Positions 2,922 to 19,128 of a DNA stretch of 24,936 bases are shown here, piece after piece. Origin of the DNA: a virus; the IMG/VR virus record IMGVR_UViG_3300005921_000014, positions 1 through 24,936 of that record. The stretch is one strand, 5' to 3'. The position numbers and the translations under genes were made by a program. Position 1 is the first letter of the stretch, and every line of letters starts with the position of its first letter. The notes under the pieces are model-generated. The model worked only from the letters and a program-made list of their open reading frames with translations. It did no database searches and had not been told where the DNA came from.

Positions 2922-3342
2922 TGGACAATCTGTCGATCTGAGCGTCGCCTACACCGATTCTCAGGGCGCGCCCGCCCCGGCTCCGGGGCCGGTCAACTGG
3001 ACCTCGTCCGACACCTCGATCGTGACCGTCTCGTCTGGGGACGAGGACGAGTCGGCGACCGCGACCTCGGTCGCGGAAGGCACCGCGACCATCACCGCCG
3101 AGTCGAACGGGATCACTTGCGGCATCGACATGATCGTTGGCGCAGGCGATGCCGTGGCGACTGAAGGGGAAATCACGGCGGGCGAGCCCTACGACACGAC
3201 GGGATCGCCGGATCAGGGCCTGCCGATCGGCGGCTTGGGCGGTCGTCTGCCCGGTCAACAGCCGCAGCGCCCGCCAGCTCAGCAGGCTCCCGCGCAGCGG
3301 CAGGGCCAGCCGGTTGTTAGGACGACGACTGTCAGGCGGTAA
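2905..3342 (+). CDS. Ig-like (Big2-type) virion protein
   Basis: A 145-residue protein. Residues about 1-80 look like one bacterial Ig-like group 2 (Big2) beta-sandwich: NGQSVDLSVAYTD, then VNWTSSDTSIVTVSSG and AEGTATITAES, the usual 'W-S-S-D-x-S-I-A-T-V ... G-x-A-T-I-T-A' signature. Residues 81-145 are a flexible Pro/Gln/Gly tail ending in a basic stretch, and include PDQGLPIGG (102-110). Ig-like domains on phage virions are thought to give weak binding to host surface sugars or environmental polymers. The ATG at 2905 was chosen for its ribosome site. The stop overlaps the next gene's ATG (TAATG). The domain call is fairly confident; the virion location is inferred from neighbours. Confidence 0.75.
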   Translation: MVELVNGQSVDLSVAYTDSQGAPAPAPGPVNWTSSDTSIVTVSSGDEDESATATSVAEGTATITAESNGITCGIDMIVGAGDAVATEGEITAGEPYDTTGSPDQGLPIGGLGGRLPGQQPQRPPAQQAPAQRQGQPVVRTTTVRR

Positions 3343-6113
3343 TGGTTGACGATCTCGGCGAGTACGACGTCCAGCCCGTCGAAGGAAATCCCTTCGGCGC
3401 GATGGCGTCGTCGCCGAACGACTATGACGTTGCGCCGGTCGATCACGATCCTTTCGCGGGCGCTGGCGAAAACCCGGCGCCAGACCAGTTCGAGCTAGCG
3501 TCTCGGCAGCCCGAGGCGCCAGCCGCGCGCAATATGCCTTACCCAGGCCAGTTCGATCCGAGCAGTGTTTATGCGAAACCGCCGCTCGATCCCCGCGACC
3601 GCGATCTCCTCATCAAGACTGTCTACGGCGAAGCGAGTGACCAGCCGACACTGGGTCAAGCGGGGGTCGCGCACGCCATCCTGAATCGGGTCCGCGCTGG
3701 CGGCTACGGCCAGGGGATCGAGGGCGTCGTCCACGCGGGCGTCCCGAACCCTCGCGATGCTGCGCGTGGCTTTCACGAGTTCTCGCCTTGGAACCCTCCG
3801 GGAGTGCCTGAAAGCAACCCCACAGCGCAGAACCTTTCCCCCGATTCCAGAGACCCGCGTCTGGCCAAGGCCTACCGCGACATCGGCACTGTCGTCGATG
3901 ATGTCTATGCGGATCGCATCCCCGATCCGACGCACGGCGCCACGCACTACTACGGCTACATGCCGCATCCGCCGCCATGGGCTCCGGCGCTCGCCAAGCA
4001 GAACCGGGTCAAGATCGGCGGCCAGACCTTCGTCGGCGGCGCGGAAGGCCCCGGCCGATCGATGCAGACGGCCACCGGCTACGCGGGCGGCGCCCCAGTG
4101 CAGCTGAATGCGGATCTGAGGCGTCGCCTCGCGCTGCTGACCCGGCCTCGATCTGGATTCGCCGACGGCGGGCCGCCGGACCCGAACGATCCCAACAATG
4201 CTGCGTTCGCCCAGATCGAGGGGCAAGCGCGCGCGGTCGACGCCAATGATCCTACGGCGCCCGCTCCAGCTCCGGCCCCCGCTCCGACAACTTGGTACGG
4301 GAGGTGGGGCCAGACGCTTGGGGATGAACTCAGCTCTGTAGGGCCAGCGGTCAGCGCGGCGACGGAAGGCCTCGGGAAGTTCGGCGCCAGCGTCGCCGCC
4401 AACCCGGTGGGTTATGGCCCGCTGAGCTTCCGCACCATGAGCCCGGAGAGCGAGGCGCTCCTCGGCCGCGATTTCACCGGGATGCTCGATTCGCCGATGC
4501 TCGGCGAGGTGGCTGGCATGCCTCGGGCGCCGGAGGCTGTTGCGCCGCGCGTCGGGGCGACGGGCTCGGATGTCTCGGCTGGCGCGTCCGCGTCTCGCGC
4601 GCAGATCATGGACATCAACGGCGTCAAACGTCACATCGATCCTGAGTTCCCCGAGAGCCGCGTCGGAACCGCAGTCCCGTGGAAGGAGGACGCAAACGCT
4701 CCGATCGATGCCGAACAGGCCGCTCATGCAAACAACGACGCGCATGTCGGCATGGAGTTGGCGGATCAAGTGCCGAGCTATGGCAAATCCGTCGCCAATA
4801 TGGTCCGCAACGGCAGGATTCCCTACGTCAAGGTGGCGCCTGGGGCGAGCGACGCGGCGGTGCAAGAAGCTCTAATCGAGCACATGAAGAACAATCTCCT
4901 CGGCCTCTACAACCGAGTGAGCGGCGCCGTGCGCAGCGGCTCGAAACTCTGGTACGAGGGCGCGAATAGCCGATCGCAAGGCATCGCTCAGACCCACGAT
5001 ATCCCGCACGAGAACGCGGCTGGCGTTGTCGCGGCGATGTCGCCGCAGAAAGACTGGGACCAGAACGTCGCGCTCGCGGACTGGGTGGCTCATACCGCTG
5101 GCACGACCGCTGACGACGCCACGATGAGCCCGCAGATGACCGACTGGGTCAATAAATACGCTCTCCGCAAGGATTCGGAGCGCGTCGTGACCGACCCGAC
5201 AACGGGCAAGGAGACGCGGTTCAACGCGAGAACCGGCGAGCAGATGGCGCCCAATTCAGTCAGCCGGGAGGACGTTCAAAGGCAACTTGCCGAGGTCAAT
5301 GGAGTGCCATGGGGTCAGATGGACCCGGACCAGAAGGCTTTCTACACGCGCGCCTATTACGAGGCGCACGGGCCGCCCGATCATCTGATCGCGACCGATG
5401 ACCAGACCGGCGAAGCCTCGCACTGGATCGATGACAAGCTCGACCGCAAGTACGGCTATTACATCAACAATCCGGACGGGACCCACAACGGCGTGCTCGC
5501 GCGTTACGGGGATGAGTTCCCCAACAAAAAGGGCCAGCCGATCCCAGTCTCGTGGGGCTCGACCGGCGAAGTCTCGAACGCCATCAAGGCGTTTGGCGCG
5601 AACAGCATGAGCGACATTTCAGAGGCGCTCGGCGGCGGCCACAAGGTGCGCTCGTTCTTCAACAACATCATCGCGCCATGGTCGCAGAAGGGCGATGTCA
5701 CCAGTGACACGCACGCCGTGGCGGCGGCCCTCTTACGCCCGCTGGGCGCGGGCTCGCCGGAGGCCGCGTCTGGTATGGGCGCCGCTAGTCCGGGCAATGC
5801 CGAAACGGGGCTCAATGGATTTTATCCGCACGTCGCCGAGGCTTATCGCAGGGCGGCTGCGGAGGCGGGGGTTCTGCCGCGCGAGCTGCAATCCATTACG
5901 TGGGAGGCGCTTCGCGGCCTTTGGTCAGCGAGAGAGAAGAGCGCCAAGTCGAACGTGAGGACGGGCTTTGTCTCTCAAACCGACGCGACCAACGGCATCT
6001 GGCAGCGTTACGCCAACAACCAGATGACGATGCAACAGGCTCACGACGCGATCCTCGGCCCGCAGGGCGAGAGGATCAGAGCGCCGCGATGGTTCTCGAC
6101 CTTTCAGCCCTGA
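3342..6113 (+). CDS. Large virion protein with N-terminal SleB-like cell wall hydrolase domain
   Basis: A 923-residue protein. Residues 1-60 hold two copies of an acidic motif (YDVQPVEGNPFGA and YDVAPVDHDPFAG). Residues about 85-235 match the SleB/Hydrolase_2 cell-wall hydrolase pattern: TVYGEAS with candidate catalytic E97, then QAGVAHAILNRV, HEFSPW and HYYGY. A Pro/Ala linker (about 270-310) follows, with a GFADGGPPDPND motif. The C-terminal half (about 500-900) contains NNLLGLYNRV and AAGVVAAMSPQKDWDQNV (559-576), which I recall from large virion or internal proteins of many podoviruses and which has no settled function. Inference: a virion hydrolase that helps the genome cross peptidoglycan at infection. 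It follows the Ig-like gene with a 1-base overlap. Its end overlaps the tail of a minus-strand gene by 10 bases. The hydrolase domain is likely; the role of the C-terminal part is uncertain. Confidence 0.8.
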   Translation: MVDDLGEYDVQPVEGNPFGAMASSPNDYDVAPVDHDPFAGAGENPAPDQFELASRQPEAPAARNMPYPGQFDPSSVYAKPPLDPRDRDLLIKTVYGEASDQPTLGQAGVAHAILNRVRAGGYGQGIEGVVHAGVPNPRDAARGFHEFSPWNPPGVPESNPTAQNLSPDSRDPRLAKAYRDIGTVVDDVYADRIPDPTHGATHYYGYMPHPPPWAPALAKQNRVKIGGQTFVGGAEGPGRSMQTATGYAGGAPVQLNADLRRRLALLTRPRSGFADGGPPDPNDPNNAAFAQIEGQARAVDANDPTAPAPAPAPAPTTWYGRWGQTLGDELSSVGPAVSAATEGLGKFGASVAANPVGYGPLSFRTMSPESEALLGRDFTGMLDSPMLGEVAGMPRAPEAVAPRVGATGSDVSAGASASRAQIMDINGVKRHIDPEFPESRVGTAVPWKEDANAPIDAEQAAHANNDAHVGMELADQVPSYGKSVANMVRNGRIPYVKVAPGASDAAVQEALIEHMKNNLLGLYNRVSGAVRSGSKLWYEGANSRSQGIAQTHDIPHENAAGVVAAMSPQKDWDQNVALADWVAHTAGTTADDATMSPQMTDWVNKYALRKDSERVVTDPTTGKETRFNARTGEQMAPNSVSREDVQRQLAEVNGVPWGQMDPDQKAFYTRAYYEAHGPPDHLIATDDQTGEASHWIDDKLDRKYGYYINNPDGTHNGVLARYGDEFPNKKGQPIPVSWGSTGEVSNAIKAFGANSMSDISEALGGGHKVRSFFNNIIAPWSQKGDVTSDTHAVAAALLRPLGAGSPEAASGMGAASPGNAETGLNGFYPHVAEAYRRAAAEAGVLPRELQSITWEALRGLWSAREKSAKSNVRTGFVSQTDATNGIWQRYANNQMTMQQAHDAILGPQGERIRAPRWFSTFQP

Positions 6114-6313
6114 CCTCGCTTGCGGAAGGGCGGCGGCATCATGTCCTCGACCTCCGGCGGCACTTGATCCGGAACGTCATCGAACACGTAATTGCGTCGT
6201 AGCCACCTCTCGCGCGTGAGCGGCTCGCCGCTCTTAAGCATGCCACGGACGTGTGGGCTCGTTCTCGCCCATTGCTGCCAGTTCGGATGATTTCTCGGGG
6301 GTAGCTGTGCCAT
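6104..6313 (-). CDS. Small minus-strand protein, unknown function
   Basis: A 69-residue protein encoded against the direction of all other accepted genes. The open frame continues upstream to 6763, but that part lies opposite the 6423-7400 gene and looks like a shadow. ATG 6313 is preferred because GGAG lies 8 bases upstream, it fills the only sizeable gap in the plus strand, and a promoter-like pair sits just above it. The protein is polar with three Trp (NWQQWARTSPHVRGMLKSG, then PLTRERWLRRNYVFDD) and a Pro-rich end (VEDMMPPPFRKRG). The 'PLTRERWL...N ... PxPFR' layout resembles small unnamed phage proteins I recall. Third codon positions are mostly G or C, as in real genes here. It ends tail-to-tail, overlapping the 923-residue gene by 10 bases. 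Function is unknown; a separately regulated accessory (moron-like) gene is one possibility. Confidence 0.62.
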   Translation of the reverse strand: MAQLPPRNHPNWQQWARTSPHVRGMLKSGEPLTRERWLRRNYVFDDVPDQVPPEVEDMMPPPFRKRGQG

Positions 6314-6326
6314 CGTCTCGACTCCG

Positions 6327-6343
6327 TTTGCACCAACTGCAAA
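6327..6343. promoter_or_regulatory. Inverted repeat, possible operator
   Basis: TTTGCA and TGCAAA form a perfect 6-base inverted repeat around CCAAC. It overlaps the downstream edge of the candidate minus-strand -10 box and the predicted transcription start, where a repressor would act. A third TTGCA half-site lies in the palindrome GCAATTGC at 6361-6368, over the candidate -35 box. No cognate regulator gene is visible in the window. Confidence 0.4.
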
Positions 6344-6370
6344 TGTAAGGGCTCTTTCGCGCAATTGCAA
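6342..6370 (-). promoter_or_regulatory. Candidate sigma70-type promoter for the minus-strand gene
   Basis: Read on the minus strand, TTGCAA (plus 6365-6370) is followed after 17 bases by TACATT (plus 6342-6347). Each hexamer matches 4 of 6 positions of the TTGACA/TATAAT consensus, and the spacing is ideal. Transcription would start near 6335, giving a leader of about 22 bases that includes the GGAG ribosome site. The region is visibly more AT-rich than its surroundings. A chance match cannot be excluded. Confidence 0.45.
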
Positions 6371-6422
6371 TCGGCGCCATAAATCCGCGCGTGAAAGGCT
6401 GGACCCCAGAGAGGGTTCCGCC

Positions 6423-7400
6423 ATGGGCGAACATTCACAGAAAGCCTTTACGGCCGACAAACTGAAAAAGTTTGAGGTCTCGGGCAAAAATGGCGGCGGT
6501 TCCTCAAGCGGGGATCGAGCCGCACGGGCGGATAATTTCGGGAAGACCGCCGCCCACCAGAGCGATTCGTCTACGTCGGCTTTTGCCGCTGGCGGAGCTG
6601 CGAAGGCGCCGTCGCTCGGCCGCGCCGGTCGCGCGAAGGGCGGGCGCATCAACCGTCCCGCCGTGGCCTCGGCGGACTTTGGGAAGTCGAAGACCGGCGG
6701 CAACGCCCCCGGCAAGATTCCGGACAACGAAGGCGGCAAGGCCCGCAATCTCTCCATGCTCACCGACGGCGGGCCTCGATCTTATGGCGATCGGCCGCTG
6801 ATCGTTGGGCATGGCGACGAAAACGCCCTGCGCGCCAGGGGCGGCAAGATCAAGCGCGCCAAGGGCGGCCGGATCGGGAGGCAGCTCGGCGGCGGATTGG
6901 GTGGTCCTCCACCGCAGACGCCTCCAGGCATGCTCGCGCCACCTCCGCAGGGCCAGATCCCTGGCCTACCGGGCCTGGGCCGCGCCAAAGGCGGCCGAAC
7001 CAATCTCGCGCGCGGCGGCAAGGCCAAGGGCGCCAAAGGGAAGACCGTCGTCAACGTGATCGTGGGCGGTAAGGATCACGATCAGCCGCCGCCGCCCACG
7101 CCGCCGATCATGCCGCACCCGATGGTGCCGCCGCCGCCGCCACCGCCGCCGCCGCAGGGGGGCATGCCGCCTGGGATGCCTCCAGGCATGCCGCCTGGGA
7201 TGCCCCCAGGCGCTGGCGCCGCGCCTCCTCCGCGACCGCCCATGCCGCCTCCTGGCGGGATGCCGCCTGGGATGCCTCCTCCGGGCATGGGCCGCGCGCA
7301 CGGCGGGCGAATCTCCGAGAAGTTCGGCGCGGGCTCCGGCCGAGGCCGCCTGGAGAAGACCAAACGCGAGAACAGCGGGAAGGTGATGTTGTCCGAATGA
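6423..7400 (+). CDS. Gly/Pro/Lys-rich repetitive phage protein
   Basis: A 325-residue low-complexity, basic protein. The N-terminal part (1-60) is polar and Ser/Gly-rich. The rest carries repeated short basic glycine motifs: GRAKGGRI-like units (GRAGRAKGGRI, RARGGKIKRAKGGRI, GRAKGGRTNLARGGK, GRAHGGRIS). In between are Pro/Gly tracts, including a run of prolines and tandem GMPPG units (nt 7161-7208). A short hydrophobic stretch (KTVVNVIVGG) interrupts the disorder. No enzyme domain is visible. The same basic 'A-x-G-G' motifs recur in the 13233 and 24220 genes, which suggests a shared virion-associated role such as binding DNA or another structural protein. The ATG at 6423 has a purine-rich site (AGAGAGGG) about 9 bases upstream. 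Its stop overlaps the next ATG. Function is unknown. Confidence 0.75.
   Translation: MGEHSQKAFTADKLKKFEVSGKNGGGSSSGDRAARADNFGKTAAHQSDSSTSAFAAGGAAKAPSLGRAGRAKGGRINRPAVASADFGKSKTGGNAPGKIPDNEGGKARNLSMLTDGGPRSYGDRPLIVGHGDENALRARGGKIKRAKGGRIGRQLGGGLGGPPPQTPPGMLAPPPQGQIPGLPGLGRAKGGRTNLARGGKAKGAKGKTVVNVIVGGKDHDQPPPPTPPIMPHPMVPPPPPPPPPQGGMPPGMPPGMPPGMPPGAGAAPPPRPPMPPPGGMPPGMPPPGMGRAHGGRISEKFGAGSGRGRLEKTKRENSGKVMLSE
7161..7208 (+). repeat. 24-bp tandem repeat (two copies) in the Gly/Pro-rich gene
   Basis: Two adjacent 24-base units, 7161-7184 and 7185-7208, differ at one base and encode GMPPGMPP. A diverged partial copy follows near 7258-7280. The pattern is typical of slippage-prone Pro/Gly coding repeats. 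Confidence 0.8.
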
Positions 7401-7696
7401 GCGCAGAACAGGTGCGGGGAGTTCCGATCGGGGCGACGGGTGAGGCTGCGGGCAGGACGTTGTCGACCGCGAATGTCGCCAGCGAGAGCGACGAGCGCAC
7501 CGTCAACAACGCTGTCCGTCACCAGTACCGCGTGCTCTCCGATCCGGAGAAGGCGGCGATGGTGCGCCTCAAGGATCTCGGCCTCGGGTTCCTCAAGGCG
7601 ATCGACGATTGCGTGCCGGTGGGCCGCGAGCGCTCGCTCGCCCGCACCAAGGTGGAGGAGGCGGTCATGTGGGCCGTCAAAGGCCTCACGCAATGA
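7397..7696 (+). CDS. Acb2/Tad1-like hairpin protein (probable cyclic-nucleotide sponge)
   Basis: A 99-residue protein. The first 40 residues are a polar, variable leader. Residues 42-97 form a predicted helical hairpin: HQYRVLSDPEKAAMVRLKDLG (42-62, giving helix one), a short turn at CVPVG (72-76), and RERSLARTKVEEAVMWA (77-93, helix two). The 'R-x-x-S-L-A-x-T-K-x-E-E-A-V-M-W-A' second helix is the hallmark I recall for the Acb2/Tad1 hairpin family. Characterised members assemble into oligomers that bind CBASS cyclic di-/trinucleotides or Thoeris gcADPR-type signals and so block these host defences. The assignment here is from motif recognition only; the ligand is not predictable. The ATG overlaps the stop of the preceding gene, and the stop overlaps the next ATG, so the gene is embedded in the virion operon and would be expressed with it. 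Confidence 0.75.
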   Translation: MSAEQVRGVPIGATGEAAGRTLSTANVASESDERTVNNAVRHQYRVLSDPEKAAMVRLKDLGLGFLKAIDDCVPVGRERSLARTKVEEAVMWAVKGLTQ

Positions 7697-7881
7697 TCGA
7701 GCGGAGCTGTCCGCGCTGCGGCAAACCAGTGAAGGGAACCGGCAGGACGGGAATGTGTCGGGCTTGCGCGTGCACCTTGTCGAACAAGCGCCGGGACTTC
7801 AATCCGTGGAAGCATCCGCACGCGTATCGCCATCGCACCCGGCGCAGCGCGCCCGTCACCTTGGCGGGGAGCGCCGAATGA
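7693..7881 (+). CDS. Small zinc-ribbon protein
   Basis: A 62-residue basic protein. C6-x2-C9 (CPRCGKP) and C22-x2-C25 (CRAC) with 12 residues between form a compact zinc-ribbon or zinc-knuckle, followed by an Arg/His-rich stretch (WKHPHAYRHRTRRS). The ATG at 7693 was chosen over an upstream in-frame start at 7609, because it overlaps the previous stop by four bases and the upstream residues are an out-of-frame reading of the Acb2-like gene. Such small zinc-ribbon proteins in phages may bind nucleic acid or a host protein; nothing in the sequence says which. It is the second gene of a coupled set of small genes. Confidence 0.68.
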   Translation: MIERSCPRCGKPVKGTGRTGMCRACACTLSNKRRDFNPWKHPHAYRHRTRRSAPVTLAGSAE

Positions 7882-8099
7882 CCGAGCTGGGCGACCGATT
7901 CCGCGAGTTCGCGGCGCTCTGCGACAGCCAGCCGAAATTCGTCGCGGCGGGCATCGTCGCGCGGCCGAACGAGACGGTCGTCGCGGTGTTCACCGAGACT
8001 GAAGATCGAGCCCCCGAGACGGTCGCGATCGGGCTCTATCACGGCGTCATGACGCCGACTGAGCACCTCGACTATTTCCGCGAAGCGGAGACCGCCTGA
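7878..8099 (+). CDS. Small hypothetical protein (73 aa)
   Basis: ATG at 7878 overlaps the preceding stop (ATGA), and its own stop overlaps the next ATG (TGATG). The protein has an opening amphipathic helix (ELGDRFREFAALCDSQP), then strand-like segments (KFVAAGIVARPNETVVAVF and ETVAIGLYHGV), and a closing helix (PTEHLDYFREAE). The alpha-beta-beta-alpha look suggests a small folded domain. I do not recognise the family. Tight coupling to the Acb2-like and zinc-ribbon genes makes a related accessory role possible, but this is only guilt by association. Confidence 0.68.
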   Translation: MTELGDRFREFAALCDSQPKFVAAGIVARPNETVVAVFTETEDRAPETVAIGLYHGVMTPTEHLDYFREAETA

Positions 8100-8323
8100 T
8101 GGACGCGATGTCGATCTTCGTCGCGAAGAAACTGACCGAGCGGATCGAGGCGAAGCAGAAGGAAATGCTGCGCCCGCTCATCAACGGCGCGGCGGCTGAC
8201 TTCCCCGACTACAAAAAGCGCGCCGGATATCTGGAGGCGCTTGGCCACGTCCTCGAATGGATCGAGCAAATCGACAACGAGGAAGACGATCAAGGAAGAG
8301 GACCCCTTGCCCGCGCATCATAG
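8099..8323 (+). CDS. Small helical hypothetical protein (74 aa)
   Basis: ATG at 8099 shares one base with the previous stop. The protein looks all-helical: a lysine/glutamate-rich first helix (FVAKKLTERIEAKQKEML), then DFPDYKKRAGYLEALGHVLEWIEQ. This pattern, with a D-Y-x-x-Y-x-x-L/G-x-L-E-A-L core, resembles short unnamed proteins found near capsid genes of podoviruses, possibly dimeric helical hairpins. Its last 17 bases overlap the start of the GroES-like gene, and its acidic tail contains that gene's Shine-Dalgarno sequence. Function is unknown. Confidence 0.68.
   Translation: MDAMSIFVAKKLTERIEAKQKEMLRPLINGAAADFPDYKKRAGYLEALGHVLEWIEQIDNEEDDQGRGPLARAS
8292..8302 (+). promoter_or_regulatory. 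Ribosome binding site deciding a TTG start
   Basis: The purine run AAGGAAGAGGA ends 4 bases before TTG 8307. It selects this start over an in-frame TTG at 8241 that has no such site and lies deep inside the previous gene. Confidence 0.6.
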
Positions 8324-8714
8324 GATCATAACCCTCCACATCGAGGACCCCCGCGATACCATCTGGAACGGCTGCGGCGATGATCTCGAAAAGGTCGATC
8401 CGTTCGCTCAGCAAGTGCTGATCGCGACCTACATCCGGCCCGCGACCCGCACCGCAGGCGGCCTGGAGATCGCCGAAGAGGCGGTCGACGAGGATCGCTA
8501 CCAGGGCAAGGTGGGGATGGTCCTGAAGAAGGGGCCGCGCGCCTTCGTCGATGACGGCATCGTCAAGTTTTACGGACAGGACGTCGAGCCAGGAGACTGG
8601 GTGGTCTATCGGGCGAGCGACGGCCTCAAGGGGATGATCGGCGACCGCGAGGTGCGCTTCATCAACGACGTCTCCATCAAGGGCAAAATCGATCACCCAG
8701 ATGCGTGGTTCTGA
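8307..8714 (+). CDS. GroES-like co-chaperonin protein
   Basis: A 135-residue protein from a TTG start. From about residue 30 it follows the GroES/Cpn10 plan: VDPFAQQVLIATYIRP, then a mobile-loop-like segment with AGGLEI (50-55; GroES has a GGIVL-type tripeptide that docks into GroEL), YQGKVGMVLKKGP, and VKFYGQDVEPGDWVVYRASDG, matching the 'G-x-V-x-x-V-G-x-G ... V-x-x-G-D-x-V-x-Y' framework. Phages can encode GroES substitutes (T4 gp31) that help host GroEL fold the capsid protein. Position just before scaffold and capsid genes fits this. The first 25 residues and the C-terminal KIDHPDAWF are additions to a plain GroES. It could instead be a GroES-fold structural protein. Its stop overlaps the next ATG. 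Confidence 0.75.
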   Translation: MPAHHRIITLHIEDPRDTIWNGCGDDLEKVDPFAQQVLIATYIRPATRTAGGLEIAEEAVDEDRYQGKVGMVLKKGPRAFVDDGIVKFYGQDVEPGDWVVYRASDGLKGMIGDREVRFINDVSIKGKIDHPDAWF

Positions 8715-9775
8715 TGGCCAGAGTAACGGAAGACCCCGAGCAGCAGACGCATTTCGGCGCGCTCATCGACGAACCTGACGAAAGCCTCCAGCCGGAGGAC
8801 CGATTAGAGCCAAAAACCGTCGTCGTCGGCGGCATTCCGGTCCGCAGCGGCGACAAGAAGCCAACGCCCAAGGCGGCCGACGTCGAGGTCGAGCTGCCGA
8901 TGCGCGCCTCGCCGGAGCCGGAGGCCGAGGACGAGGGCGTCCTTGAGCTGAAGCGCCAGCTCTCCAACCAGATGGCGATGACGAATCGGGCGGCCGAAGT
9001 CGCGCGAAACGAGCATCAGGCCCGCATCCAGGCCGAGCGCGGCCTCACGCAGTCGAATGTGCAGATGGTCGATGCCGCGATCGAGTCGGCGAAGCGCGAT
9101 TCCGAGCAGGCCAGAGCCTATTTCCAGGGCGCGCTCGATCGCGGCGACCACAGGGGCGCGTCTGAGGCCCAGGTTCTTCTCTCGGACGCCCGAGCGAACC
9201 TCCTGCGGCTGATGGAGATGCGCGAAGGCGTCGTCGCCGAGGCGCAGCAGCAGCCCCAACCGCCGCGCCAGCAACCGCAGCCGCGCCAGCAACCGCAGTA
9301 CGCGGACCCGGCGCAAGTGATGCAGGCGAACGTACATAGGCTTTCCGGTCACCTCGACCAAACGGGCTTCCCGAAGAGCGCCGAGTGGATCAGGAGCCAC
9401 CCCGAGGCGGTCAGGGATCAGGCCGGGATCGATGGGATCGACGGCGCGCACCGCATCGCCGTGAACAGGTTCAAACTCATCCCCGAAACGGACGCCTACT
9501 TCGACAAAATCGAGGAATTGCTTGGCGTGGGAGACGCACCGCAGATGACACAGACCCGCCAGGGCCAGCGCCAGCTGACCCAGAGCCGCATGGCCGCGCC
9601 AGCGCGCGCCGAAGCGCCGAGCCTGCGCACCGGCCGCCCTCGCGGCACGCCAGTCGCGCTCACCGCCCGCCAGCGTGAGCACGCCCGCGACGTGCTCGGC
9701 ATGAGCGACGAGGAATACGCGGCCGAACTGGTCGACGCGCAAGGGCGCGGCAAGATGTTGGGAGCCCGGTCATGA
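8714..9775 (+). CDS. Probable capsid scaffolding protein
   Basis: A 353-residue, highly charged protein. Residues 1-70 are acidic and disordered. Residues about 75-180 form a long predicted coiled coil (LELKRQLSNQMAMTNRAAEV, QARIQAERG, SAKRDSEQARAYF). Then come a Gln/Pro linker with two QQPQPRQQPQ-like units (about 178-196) and a C-terminal part (200-353) ending in TARQREHARDVLGMSDEEYA and a basic tail. Helical, charged proteins directly upstream of the capsid gene are usually scaffolds that direct procapsid assembly through a C-terminal coat-binding segment. No sequence signature proves this. ATG 8714 (overlap TGATG with the GroES-like gene) is preferred to the GTG at 8705, which would add only three residues inside the upstream gene. 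Confidence 0.65.
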   Translation: MARVTEDPEQQTHFGALIDEPDESLQPEDRLEPKTVVVGGIPVRSGDKKPTPKAADVEVELPMRASPEPEAEDEGVLELKRQLSNQMAMTNRAAEVARNEHQARIQAERGLTQSNVQMVDAAIESAKRDSEQARAYFQGALDRGDHRGASEAQVLLSDARANLLRLMEMREGVVAEAQQQPQPPRQQPQPRQQPQYADPAQVMQANVHRLSGHLDQTGFPKSAEWIRSHPEAVRDQAGIDGIDGAHRIAVNRFKLIPETDAYFDKIEELLGVGDAPQMTQTRQGQRQLTQSRMAAPARAEAPSLRTGRPRGTPVALTARQREHARDVLGMSDEEYAAELVDAQGRGKMLGARS

Positions 9776-11070: not shown

Positions 11071-11985
11071 ATGGCCGTCTCAGTCGCCCAGGCTTACGAC
11101 CTGCTGTTCCCCGGCCTCCGCAAGGTGGCCGGTCAGTATAAGGATCTCGATCGGATCTATCCCAAGATCTATAAGGTCGATAAGTCCTATATGTCCGTCG
11201 AGCGTACAGCATCGATGAGGTATTTGGGGCTTGCGGCTCTGAAGAATGAGGGCGGGCCGACTACGTTCGACAATCAAGCGGGCGAGCGTTACGTCTATAA
11301 TCAGTACCACAAAGAAATTGGGCTCGGTTATGCTTTCACCAGAAAGATGATCGACGATAATTTGTACAAGAGGCAATGGCAACCAAGTAACCTTGGACTA
11401 CAGAAATCTTTCAACCAGACCAAGGAAATCTATGGGGCCTACCCATTAAACATGGCGACGGTCTACGATCCTACCATTCTTGGGGATCAGCAGCCGCTCT
11501 GTTCTTTGAACCATCCGATCGATACTGGCGTCGTTGCGAACCGATTCCCGATCGATATGGATCTCAACGAGGCGTCGCTGCTCAACGCGCAGGCCTCGAT
11601 TCGCGGCTTGTTCCGAGACAACGCAGGCCTCCGCATGCAGGCCCGCGCCAGGAAGCTGGTCGTTCCGATCGCGCTCGAACCGATCGCCATCCGGCTGCTT
11701 CGCACCGTCTTGCGGCCTGGAACCAACGACAACGACGTCAACGCAATCCCCGAGACGTCAGGCGGCATCCCCGACGGGCATCTCGTCCACGACTACCTAA
11801 CATCGCCGACGGCTTGGTTTGTAATGACGGACCAAGAGGGCCTCCTATACTTGCAGCGCGTAAGCTTTGAACTCGATATGCAGGTGGATTTTACTAGCGA
11901 CAACTTGCTTGTCAAAGGTTACGAGAGGTACTCATTTGGGTACTTCGACTTTAGATCTATCTGGGGCTCGTTCCCGACGCAATAA
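11071..11985 (+). CDS. Major capsid protein (Mu gpT-like / HK97 fold)
   Basis: A 304-residue protein. Features agree with Mu gpT-like major head proteins: an N-terminal helix (LLFPGLRKVAGQYKDLDRIY), strands near GERYVYNQYHKEIGLGY followed by an F-T-R-K-M-I-D-D-N helix, and PLCSLNHP near 143-149. DLNEASLLNAQASI and GLRMQARARKLVVPI follow, then NDVNAIPETSGG and the end GYERYSFGYFDFRSIWGS. This subunit would build the icosahedral shell. The ATG has an excellent ribosome site (GAGGAGGA, 11056-11063). Codon use in the first third and last fifth is less GC-rich than in neighbours. Length is normal for the family. Confidence 0.85.
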   Translation: MAVSVAQAYDLLFPGLRKVAGQYKDLDRIYPKIYKVDKSYMSVERTASMRYLGLAALKNEGGPTTFDNQAGERYVYNQYHKEIGLGYAFTRKMIDDNLYKRQWQPSNLGLQKSFNQTKEIYGAYPLNMATVYDPTILGDQQPLCSLNHPIDTGVVANRFPIDMDLNEASLLNAQASIRGLFRDNAGLRMQARARKLVVPIALEPIAIRLLRTVLRPGTNDNDVNAIPETSGGIPDGHLVHDYLTSPTAWFVMTDQEGLLYLQRVSFELDMQVDFTSDNLLVKGYERYSFGYFDFRSIWGSFPTQ

Positions 11986-15272: not shown

Positions 15273-15656
15273 ATGGGCTATGCATCGCGATCCGGCCGCG
15301 CCGTCACCAACCCGCACGCACCGCGCGCGTTTGGCGTTTGTGACCGTTGCGGGCTGTGGTGGAATCTCCACAAGCTCGGCTATCAGTACGAGTGGCAGGG
15401 CACCAAGCTCATAAACACGCGCAAGCGCGTCTGCTTGCAGTGCAAGGACCGGCCGAATCCGCAGATGAAGGCGAGGCTGGCGCCGCCTGATCCGGTGCCC
15501 GTGTACGATCCGCGTCCCGAGAATTTCATCGCCTCGCGCTTCGACCCGACGCCGATCGCGGGCAACCCGCTCGCGCAGGAAGGACGGCCTCGGCCGCCCA
15601 TGTCGAATGCGATCTTGACCGATCCGCAACCGGGAGGGCCGATCACAATTGAATAA
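15273..15656 (+). CDS. Phage zinc-finger protein next to the adaptor
   Basis: A 127-residue protein with two CxxC pairs, C23/C26 (CDRCG) and C54/C57 (CLQC), 27 residues apart. Between them lies a conserved-looking stretch ([19 protein letters not shown]). Downstream comes [17 protein letters not shown] and a Pro-rich tail. I recall this 'C-D-R-C-G ... YQWAGTKL ... C-x-x-C ... PPDPVP-x-x-NPRPE' layout from unnamed proteins beside the adaptor of podoviruses. It probably binds one zinc and may be a minor head-tail protein. A GAGG ribosome site precedes the ATG. Function is not known. Confidence 0.75.
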
Positions 15657-18600
15657 GCCCTTCCAGCCGCCCATCACGCCCGATCCGACGCTGCCCTCGC
15701 CAGCGCCGCCTCCCCCTGTGCCGGGGCCTGCGGTCTTCGGACCGAGCCAAGCGCCGATTAACGAGACGCCGATCTCGATGCTGCCTCCGGCTGCCGTGCT
15801 GAGCGGCGCGGAGTGGGCGCCGCTGCTTCAGGGCGGGATCACGGTCAAGGCCCAGCTGACCGCGATGCTCAACTTCATCCAGTTGCCGACGCCGGTCTCC
15901 GTCGCTCTGGGCGGAACGGGGACGAGCTTCTTCCCGCTCTACGGCCTTCTCTTCGGTGGCCCGGAGCAGTTCGGCACGATCTATCCCGATCCGGGCGGCG
16001 CGGTTCTCGTCGGCGGCGCGCCTCCGCATTGGACGGGGACCGGCGACGTCGGGACCTTCCTTCAGGGCCAGGGCGCGGGCAACGATCCGATCTTTTCGCC
16101 GATCGCGGGCATTCCCGGTCCGTCTGGGGCGCAGGGACCGGCAGGGGCGCAGGGCCGCCCAGGCGTGCAAGGGCCGCAGGGTATCGCGGGGCCGACAGGC
16201 CTCCAGGGACCGGCGGGCAATACCGGACCGCCAGGACAGCTGACGGTCATCGTCGGCAGCTTCACGAACAACGCCCCCTCGGCGCTGCCGCCGAGCGGTT
16301 TGATCCCCCCGAACTGGGATAGCGCGGGGAATCCGCCCGCCCAGGTCCAGATGCAGAAGGGGCAGGGGCTGGTCGACACCGTCACTGCGGATGTCTGGGA
16401 GTTTGTCGGCACGGGCTACACGCCGGGAGGCTGGGTCAACCTCGGCGCCGTGCAGGGGCCACCTGGGGCGAACGGCCCGCAAGGCATGCAGGGCATTCAG
16501 GGGCCGGGTGGACCGACCGGCGCGGCAGGCCCGCAAGGACAGCAGGGCGCTCTCGGCGCGCAAGGTTTGACGGGTCCGCAAGGCCCTCAAGGCACGCAGG
16601 GGCCAGCTGGACCGGCAGGGCCGCAGGGAATCGACGGTCCGCAGGGCGAGCAAGGCCAGGACGGCCTGCAAGGCCCCGAGGGCGATCCTGGGCAGCCTGC
16701 TCAGTCCGTGCTCGTCGTCGGCAGCTTCACGGTGAACACGCCGGACATGCTGCCGCAGTCCGGCTTTCTCCCGATCAATTGGGATTCGGCCGGAGTCCCG
16801 CCGACAAACATCCAGATGCTCCTCGGGCAGGGGCTCATCGACACGAACACGAGCGCGATCTGGGCCTATGTCGGGACATCGATCTCTCTCACGGGCTGGG
16901 CCAATATCGGCAACGCCGTCGGCCCGCCCGGTCCGTCCGGCGCGCAGGGGATTGCGGGTCCGGCAGGCGATACCGGGCCGGAGGGGCCGACAGGGCCGCC
17001 CGGACCTCAGGGCTCGGCGGGTCCGACCGGGGGGACGGGGCCAGCTGGCCCGCAAGGCCCAGCAGGGCCAGCCGGAGCGACCGGGGGCCAGGGACCGCAG
17101 GGCGCCACCGGATTAACCGGCGCGACGGGGGCAGCCGGGCCGACGGGGCCTCAGGGGCCGATCGGATTGACCGGGCCGATCGGATTGACCGGACCGGCCG
17201 GACCGGAGGGGCCGCAAGGCGTTCAGGGGCCAACCGGACTGACCGGACCCACTGGGCCGCAGGGCGTGGCAGGCCCAACCGGACCGCAGGGGATTGCGGG
17301 TCCGGAGGGGCCGCAAGGCAACGACGGACAGACCGCGATTATCGTCGGCTCTTTCGGCGCGTCGAAGACGATCGCCGAGCTGCCCACCAACGGCATCATC
17401 CCCGCGAACTGGGACGCCCCTGGCGTGCCGCCCGCGCAGCTGACGATGGAACTCAGCCAAGCGCTCGTCTACACGCCCGACGAACATGTCGTGGTCTATG
17501 TCGGCACGAGCGTCGTGACGGCCGGATGGGTCGACATGGGGGCGACCGAGGGGCCGCCAGGACCGACAGGTGCGACCGGGCCGCAGGGCGTGGCAGGGCC
17601 AGCTGGCCCGAACGGCGCAACTGGACCGGCAGGGCCTCAAGGACCAATCGGCCCGACGGGCGTGGCAGGCCCGACCGGATCGCAGGGGCTACAGGGACCC
17701 GCTGGCCCGACCGGCTCGGCCGGACCCGCTGGCGGCACCGGCCCAGCCGGACCGCAAGGCCCCGCAGGACCGACAACCGTCTCCGCGAATGCGGGGAATT
17801 TCGCGACGCTCGGGACCGATAACCTCATCTTCGTCCCGACTCCGGTGACCTCGAACGCGGTCGCGCCGACGAATCCTCCTGCGAATCAGCTGTGGTTCGA
17901 TCTGACGGGCGGTCAGACGTACATCTGGGTGAACGACGGCAACTCAAGCCAATGGGTTGTGGCGAACAACGCCAGCGCCGCGATGCAGGGCTACCTCCCC
18001 CTCATAGGCGGCGCACTCAGCGGACCCCTGACCGGCACGGCGCTGACTCTCAGCGGCATGCTGACGGGCGTGAACGCCACGCTCACGGGCGCGCTCGCCG
18101 CCAGCGGCGGCGGCACGCTCGGCGGCACATGGACGACCAGCGGCGCTTGGACCTTCAGCAACAATGTGACCGTCAACGGCGCGATCACGACGGGCGCGTT
18201 GACGGCCAACAACGGCGTCACGATCGAGGGCACTCTCCCCAGCGGGCCATGGGCGACCTACGGCCAAGTGATCGATGGCGGCACGGACGGGGGATGGATT
18301 GCGCTGAACGCTGCGGCGACCGGCACTGCGACAAATGCCGGTTGCGGCATCATGAGTTATGTCGGCGGCCCCACCATGCCGCGCTGGCTTCTCATGCTCG
18401 GCAACGGCGCGGCCGAGACCGGCGCCGAGGCTGGCTCCGATTTCCAGATCAACGCTTACGACGATACGGGCGCCAATATGGGCGTTCCGTTCGCGATCGC
18501 CCGCGCGACTTTCGGCGCGACCTTCTCCGGCATGCTCAATGCCAACGGCGGCCTGACCATTCAAGGTCAGGTGACGCAAAGTCAGCCTTACGGTGGGCTT

Positions 18601-19128
18601 GGCCAAGCCAGCCCTGGCTTTACCTATTTCGTCGCTGCGGAAGGTAACGATTGCTTCCTAAGCTTTGTGATCCCCAACTATATCGGGACGAATTTCGGCG
18701 TAAGCATGAATAGTTATCTCTACTATGGCGGCTTCTCATTTGGCGCAAACGTCCTCTGGCAGATGTGGTCCTCGCGCGACTTCGCCAATCCGGCTTGCGA
18801 TTACCGGATCAAGGAGAACATCGCGCCGCTGCCCTCGACTTGGGCGCGGGTCAAGGCGCTGAAGCCGATCAGCTATCGCCAGAAGGAATATTCCCACGCC
18901 AGCGCGCCGAGGGGCACGAAACCGCTCCTTGAGGCCGATCCTAGAGAACGCTGGGGCTTTGTCGCTCACGAATTGCAAGAGACGCTCGGTGAGACTGCGG
19001 CTCATGTGAACAAGGATCATCCTGATCAGCTTCAGGCGCCGAACACGTTGGCGGTGATCGCGGCGCTAACCAAGGCGTTGCAAGAGGCGATGGCGCGCAT
19101 CGAAGCGCTGGAAGCGAAGGTCGCCTGA
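15649..19128 (+). CDS. Collagen-like tail fibre with C-terminal S74-type chaperone domain
   Basis: A 1159-residue protein from TTG 15649 (GGGAGGG 10 bases upstream). Residues 1-150 are a Pro-rich virion-attachment-like part. From residue 154 to about 709, four Gly-X-Y collagen-like tracts (nt about 16108-16240, 16456-16700, 16921-17332, 17551-17775) alternate with three copies of a roughly 72-residue module (VGSF ... NWDS/NWDA ... Y/FVGT ... GW). Residues 710-1045 are a beta-rich shaft and tip. The end has the Peptidase S74 intramolecular chaperone pattern: C1050-D-Y-R-I-K1055-[27 protein letters not shown], and a terminal helix ([20 protein letters not shown]). S74 domains trimerise the fibre and then cut themselves off. 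Here the usual nucleophile Ser is Cys. It overlaps the next ATG (TGATG). Confidence 0.85.
16108..17775 (+). repeat. Collagen-like Gly-X-Y coding repeats with three inserted modules
   Basis: Nine-base GGx-periodic coding repeats ([10 protein letters not shown]-type) fill four tracts. They alternate with three paralogous segments at about 16240-16455, 16704-16920 and 17336-17550, each about 216 bases. Their shared landmarks are VGSF near the start, NWDS or NWDA in the middle, a VGTS/VGTG strand, and GPPG at the exit. Confidence 0.85.

Follow-up and report, generated by a model that had tools for sequence, protein, structure and literature searches.

The window analysed here, the whole 24,936-base stretch of an IMG/VR virus record, carries a putative Acb2-like sponge gene (P0001, 99 aa, 7397-7696), and every gene retained in the annotation lies on the + strand. 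The initial annotation had placed this gene inside a virion operon, which is borne out by a portal protein gene upstream (241-2646; PHROG 1216 portal, E 1.3e-23) and a probable major head protein gene downstream (11071-11985), the latter recognised by weak matches to PHROG 4523 and 371 (E 2e-04 and 6e-04). The immediate upstream neighbour is a low-complexity Gly/Pro-rich ORF (6423-7400) that has no match in Pfam or PHROG, and the downstream neighbour is a 62-aa ORF with CxxC pairs (7693-7881), which appears zinc-ribbon-like although its Pfam zinc-ribbon matches all fall below the cut-off. A GroES-like (Cpn10) gene also lies within the virion operon (8241-8714) and is kept in the closest relatives (L005 to L011 and L021). 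Elsewhere in the window, a 923-aa ORF (3342-6113) with a cell-wall hydrolase domain (PF07486) and DUF7178 is likely a virion-borne lysin or internal protein, and a 1159-aa collagen-repeat protein (15649-19128) with a C-terminal endosialidase-chaperone (Peptidase_S74) domain is probably a tail fibre. No promoter-like site was found within 6000-9000, and the window gave no tRNA or Rfam matches.

The sponge reading frame opens with ATG at 7397, closes with TGA at 7694-7696 and, as had been claimed, overlaps both the upstream and the downstream ORF by ATGA. We preferred the ATG at 7397 as the start because its ATGA overlap recurs in L005, L006 and L010; an alternative TTG at 7460 was set aside. 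The gene call draws on matches to PF24729 and PHROG 1454 and on a dN/dS of 0.16-0.35 against six relatives in gap-free alignments, in which synonymous change predominates; a value of 0.86 against L019 was dropped, as unequal lengths had left its codons misaligned. A core HMM scored 126.7 bits on the sponge frame and 7.7 bits on the best of 100 codon-shuffled windows, yet the underlying alignment contained the sponge protein itself, which makes this control less telling than the Pfam match.

That match answers the question of family membership, which had been proposed from the sequence by eye. An HMM search found the Acb2/Tad1 hairpin (PF24729) at residues 44-99 with an E-value of 5.5e-17 and 62.1 bits (profile positions 2-58 of 58), a score above the curated Pfam cut-off of 27 bits and nearly equal to those of T4 Vs.4 (71.4 bits) and PaP2 Acb2 (66.1 bits). 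PHROG 1454, a family of unknown function, also matches (E 1.2e-08). When a profile of 57 relatives was compared with all PDB sequences, the nine best matches were only Acb2 (8ixz, 8h2j, 9ptq), Vs.4 (7uq2) and Tad1 chains, with E-values of 0.0007 for PaP2 Acb2, 0.0014 for Acb2 homolog 43, 0.005 for T4 Vs.4 and 0.03 for several Tad1 chains, and unrelated proteins started only at E 0.2 and above. The sponge protein used as a single sequence gave one PDB match, 9ptq (E 0.026). NCBIfam and PADLOC returned no match to the sponge protein, and the NCBIfam absence is meaningless, since that collection also misses T4 Vs.4 and PaP2 Acb2. On these profile matches the predicted product is a member of the Acb2/Tad1 hairpin family, whose mechanism is already known and after whose domain UniProt names many such proteins. 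Descriptions of sponges have so far come chiefly from Pseudomonas, Escherichia and Bacillus phages.

AlphaFold models the sponge protein as a two-helix hairpin with a pLDDT of about 97-98, in which helix 1 spans residues 49-72 (7541-7612, with K59 at 7571-7573) and helix 2 spans residues 77-98 (7625-7690, with R77 at 7625-7627 and T84 at 7646-7648); the motif RERSLARTKVEEAVMWA occupies residues 77-93. The helical hairpin that the initial annotation had drawn at residues 42-97 is therefore predicted, but as two separate helices and not as a single block. The eight best Foldseek matches in the PDB are all Acb2/Vs.4 (probability 0.77-0.99), with weak E-values of 0.4-1, and VIA-align gives Z 7.5 for Vs.4 and 6.8-6.9 for Acb2, scores that several unrelated helical chains equal. 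The fold alone would not prove membership, since such unrelated chains reach Z about 7. Among viral structure models, the best named matches are nearly all Acb2/Tad1 hairpin proteins.

Tad1 (PDB 7uav, 8kbd) shares with the sponge protein a hairpin bearing the motif RE--A-T-VEEA-MW, but it also has an N-terminal beta-domain that the sponge protein is predicted to lack: no beta strands appear in its model or in that of the short form L007, which has a low-confidence helix at 12-15. Because the models show no strands, the Tad1 beta-domain is taken to be absent, and a gcADPR pocket is thus not expected. Of the Acb2/Tad1-type reading offered originally, it is the Acb2 side that the models favour and the Tad1 side that they do not, and inhibition of Thoeris by the sponge protein appears unlikely.

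In order to compare ligand positions, we aligned the window protein and 54 of its relatives, 55 subfamily sequences in all, with both Acb2 types of solved structure. The relatives were gathered by peptide patterns taken from the window protein, NNAVRHQY and KVEEAVMW among them, with one pattern per locus sufficing, and as the patterns came from the sponge protein itself the conservation given here is somewhat overstated. K59 aligns with T4 K23 and with PaP2 K26, which we take to be a cyclic dinucleotide pocket residue, and R77 aligns with PaP2 R67, presumably a cyclic trinucleotide residue, where T4 has D61. Y44 aligns with PaP2 Y11 and T4 Y8, and T84 with T4 T68. The one departure is T98, which stands at the position of T4 F82; PaP2 Acb2 has Ala there, so a C-terminal Phe is not family-defining. 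Y44, K59 and R77 are invariant in the 55 sequences and T84 is found in 52 of them. T4 Acb2 no longer binds when it carries the substitution Y8A, and its F82 is stacked against the ligand (PMC12657218); T68M reduces binding (PMC12657230). The two T4 positions whose mutation affects binding, Y8 and T68, are thus found in the window protein as Y44 and T84, in keeping with the sponge function first suggested for it, and in the alignment the Acb2 ligand positions are kept with the exception of F82.

Compared with Acb2 (PaP2 p26, PDB 8h2j; T4 Vs.4, PDB 7uq2), the sponge protein has the same Pfam domain at a similar score and the same hairpin, but its inter-helix loop is shorter than in the PaP2 and T4 proteins and it adds a conserved segment at residues 27-44 and a variable 26-residue leader. 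Eight related loci (L077, L078, L080, L084, L112, L114, L124 and L127) have 8-25 extra residues in the inter-helix loop, like PaP2 and T4 Acb2. Acb2 homolog 43 (PDB 9ptq), the best single-sequence PDB match, is reached through the motif GRE-S---TK-EEA; it is 76 aa long and nearer to the short forms of Mycobacterium phages.

The region before the hairpin had been described as a variable 40-residue leader, and this holds for its first part only. Residues 1-26 (7397-7474) form a variable, exchangeable leader that is absent or different in most of the 55 aligned sequences, most relatives beginning within about 5 residues of position 27, and it is predicted to be disordered (pLDDT about 42-45; residues 7-29 fall below 50 and residues 1-40 mostly below 60). 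An influence of this leader on oligomer state or ligand choice, as first suggested, is a conjecture. Residues 27-44, in contrast, are among the best conserved parts of the alignment. This segment, VASESDERTVNNAVRHQY (7475-7528), ends at Y44 and follows the pattern SD-R---NN--RH-Y, of which N37, N38, R41, H42 and Y44 are invariant in the 55 sequences. A second model, made for a short relative, gave residues 27-44 no confident structure.

The position of the gene is shared by its nearest relatives and varies further out. Six relatives (L005 to L010) keep the gene order of the window as far as their contigs extend, and in L021 the location is unchanged apart from an inserted HNH-type gene; in L011 and L055 the gene stands immediately before the capsid genes. 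A terminase, portal or head gene is annotated within four genes of the hairpin gene in at least 31 of 89 loci, a count by clusters that is a lower bound, most neighbours being unannotated. Some relatives lie in early regions (L002 and L003, the latter near an exonuclease and recT). In Sinorhizobium phage Aussie, the homologue AUSSIE_37 (WPJ67960.1; 57% identity) also lies in the virion operon, between the head-to-tail adaptor and the stopper, and is annotated merely as a hypothetical protein. PaP2 p26 and T4 vs.4 are placed differently from the window gene in its virion operon, the former at the border of the early region and the latter within an early region. Organism names at 42 genome loci are mostly Alphaproteobacteria with a few others, and CD-NTase genes above cut-off are present in 6 of 23 genomes with relatives, which means no more than that hosts of this kind can carry such genes. 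On these data an Acb2-like sponge subfamily occurs chiefly in alphaproteobacterial phages and prophages; its genes often stand among those for head and packaging, and in some cases directly follow one for a portal protein fused to an Acb1 nuclease domain.

This fusion, in which an Acb1 domain (PF23474, E 3e-45 in L098) forms the C-terminal part of a Phage_portal_3 protein, is the commonest recognisable neighbour of the hairpin gene. It stands directly upstream at nine loci more distant from the window (L046, L078, L080, L081, L095, L103, L107, L110 and L114) and two genes upstream at L042 and L098, with L046/L103 and L042/L098 being near-duplicates. These neighbours retain both motifs of the Acb1 active-site tetrad, HxT/HxT (PMC9117128), intact in the form HxT or HxS. 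Of the 70 portal-Acb1 loci whose downstream sequence was long enough for the reverse test, 9 had a hairpin gene no more than 1.5 kb downstream, in most cases within some 200 bases; this rate is not corrected for background and was obtained with a query portal which itself had the neighbour. At these loci two anti-CBASS modules adjoin in a head operon. No Acb1 match was found in the window phage or in a 71-kb contig carrying an identical sponge gene, and the literature searched, largely without subscription papers, gave no description of either the portal-Acb1 pairing or the conserved 27-44 segment.

Taken with the predicted fold, the family match and the retained ligand positions lead us to regard it as likely that the gene encodes an Acb2-type sponge for the cyclic oligonucleotides of CBASS, expressed together with the virion genes. 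Acb2 forms a hexamer in which three cyclic dinucleotides bind between protomers, while the ends of the central channel take up two cyclic trinucleotides (PMC12043709). By analogy, the sponge protein would oligomerise, probably as a hexamer, and would bind cyclic oligonucleotides made by CBASS, the cyclic dinucleotides sitting between protomers at Y44/K59/T84 and the cyclic trinucleotides at the R77 end, so that the sequestered signals would be unable to activate suicide effectors. Residues 27-44 probably complete the pocket or an oligomer interface, and residues 1-26 would be a dispensable disordered tail. Because the gene is translationally coupled within the portal-to-capsid operon, the sponge would be made together with the virion proteins.

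This location raises a question of timing, namely whether anti-CBASS proteins are made late, alongside the capsid parts that may trigger the defence. Escape mutations of a phage lacking acb2 fall in the major capsid gene (PMC10419184), although the link between capsid and CBASS is not settled; if capsid parts do trigger CBASS, late production of a sponge would be sensible. A further-reaching proposal is that the SD-R---NN--RH-Y subfamily forms a separate kind of sponge that acts late: produced alongside portal and capsid, it would bind its signal at the moment when capsid components would trigger CBASS, and the extra segment would give it a ligand range beyond that of known Acb2; we consider this tentative, with perhaps a modest chance of being correct. 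Sinorhizobium phage Aussie offers a cultured system for the question of late timing.

The main ligand of a hairpin-family sponge could also be another signal, for example of type III CRISPR or of Thoeris type, with residues 27-44 setting the specificity. Within this subfamily the SD-R---NN--RH segment hardly varies, and neither PaP2 Acb2 nor T4 Vs.4 clearly has it; Tad1, with the same hairpin, accepts both gcADPR and cyclic oligonucleotides as ligands (PMC12043709). However, every Acb2 pocket position examined except F82 is kept, the Tad1 gcADPR domain is absent from both strand-free models, and the association with Acb1 indicates CBASS-type signals, all of which make a different main ligand improbable. 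Still less probable is a role in the virion or its assembly, in which a small protein would put the hairpin fold to another use and have no part in anti-defence. Such a role would suit a gene that lies amid portal and head genes, overlaps its neighbours by ATGA and has many relatives that also adjoin packaging or head genes, and the two-helix hairpin is a generic fold; it would not call for conserved ligand residues, though, and the variable operon position (before the capsid gene in L011 and L055), together with the early-region relatives, sits more easily with a cargo gene than with a structural component of fixed place. If the gene were a degenerate or inactive copy, retained through hitch-hiking alone, this could account for T98 in place of the stacking Phe of T4, the sponge function here being a prediction, but the low dN/dS against the six relatives and pocket residues that do not vary among phages of many different hosts leave this hardly credible.

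Apart from its function, the sponge gene has a composite structure. In L006 the leader is identical to that of the window at 78 of 78 nucleotides and the remainder at 178 of 222, whereas L007 has a different leader, with the remainder identical at 220 of 222 nucleotides and the downstream sequence at 2000 of 2000; the upstream sequence of L007 has its relatives in L012 and L025, two terminase-linked loci. In these nucleotide comparisons the leader and the body of the gene have separate histories, and the joints between them look like recombination joints, although the one in L007 may be an assembly chimera. Mosaic joints thus lie at the leader/hairpin boundary in L007 (1-384) and L006 (510-806), L007 combining a terminase-linked upstream module with the capsid module of the window. 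At two related loci, L062 (6004-6669) and L072 (4546-5196), the hairpin runs on without a stop for about 145 residues, which include hydrophobic stretches of membrane-like character and match nothing in Pfam; this frame is possibly a fusion of a sponge with a membrane protein, or possibly contains an internal start, a GTG lying near the joint.
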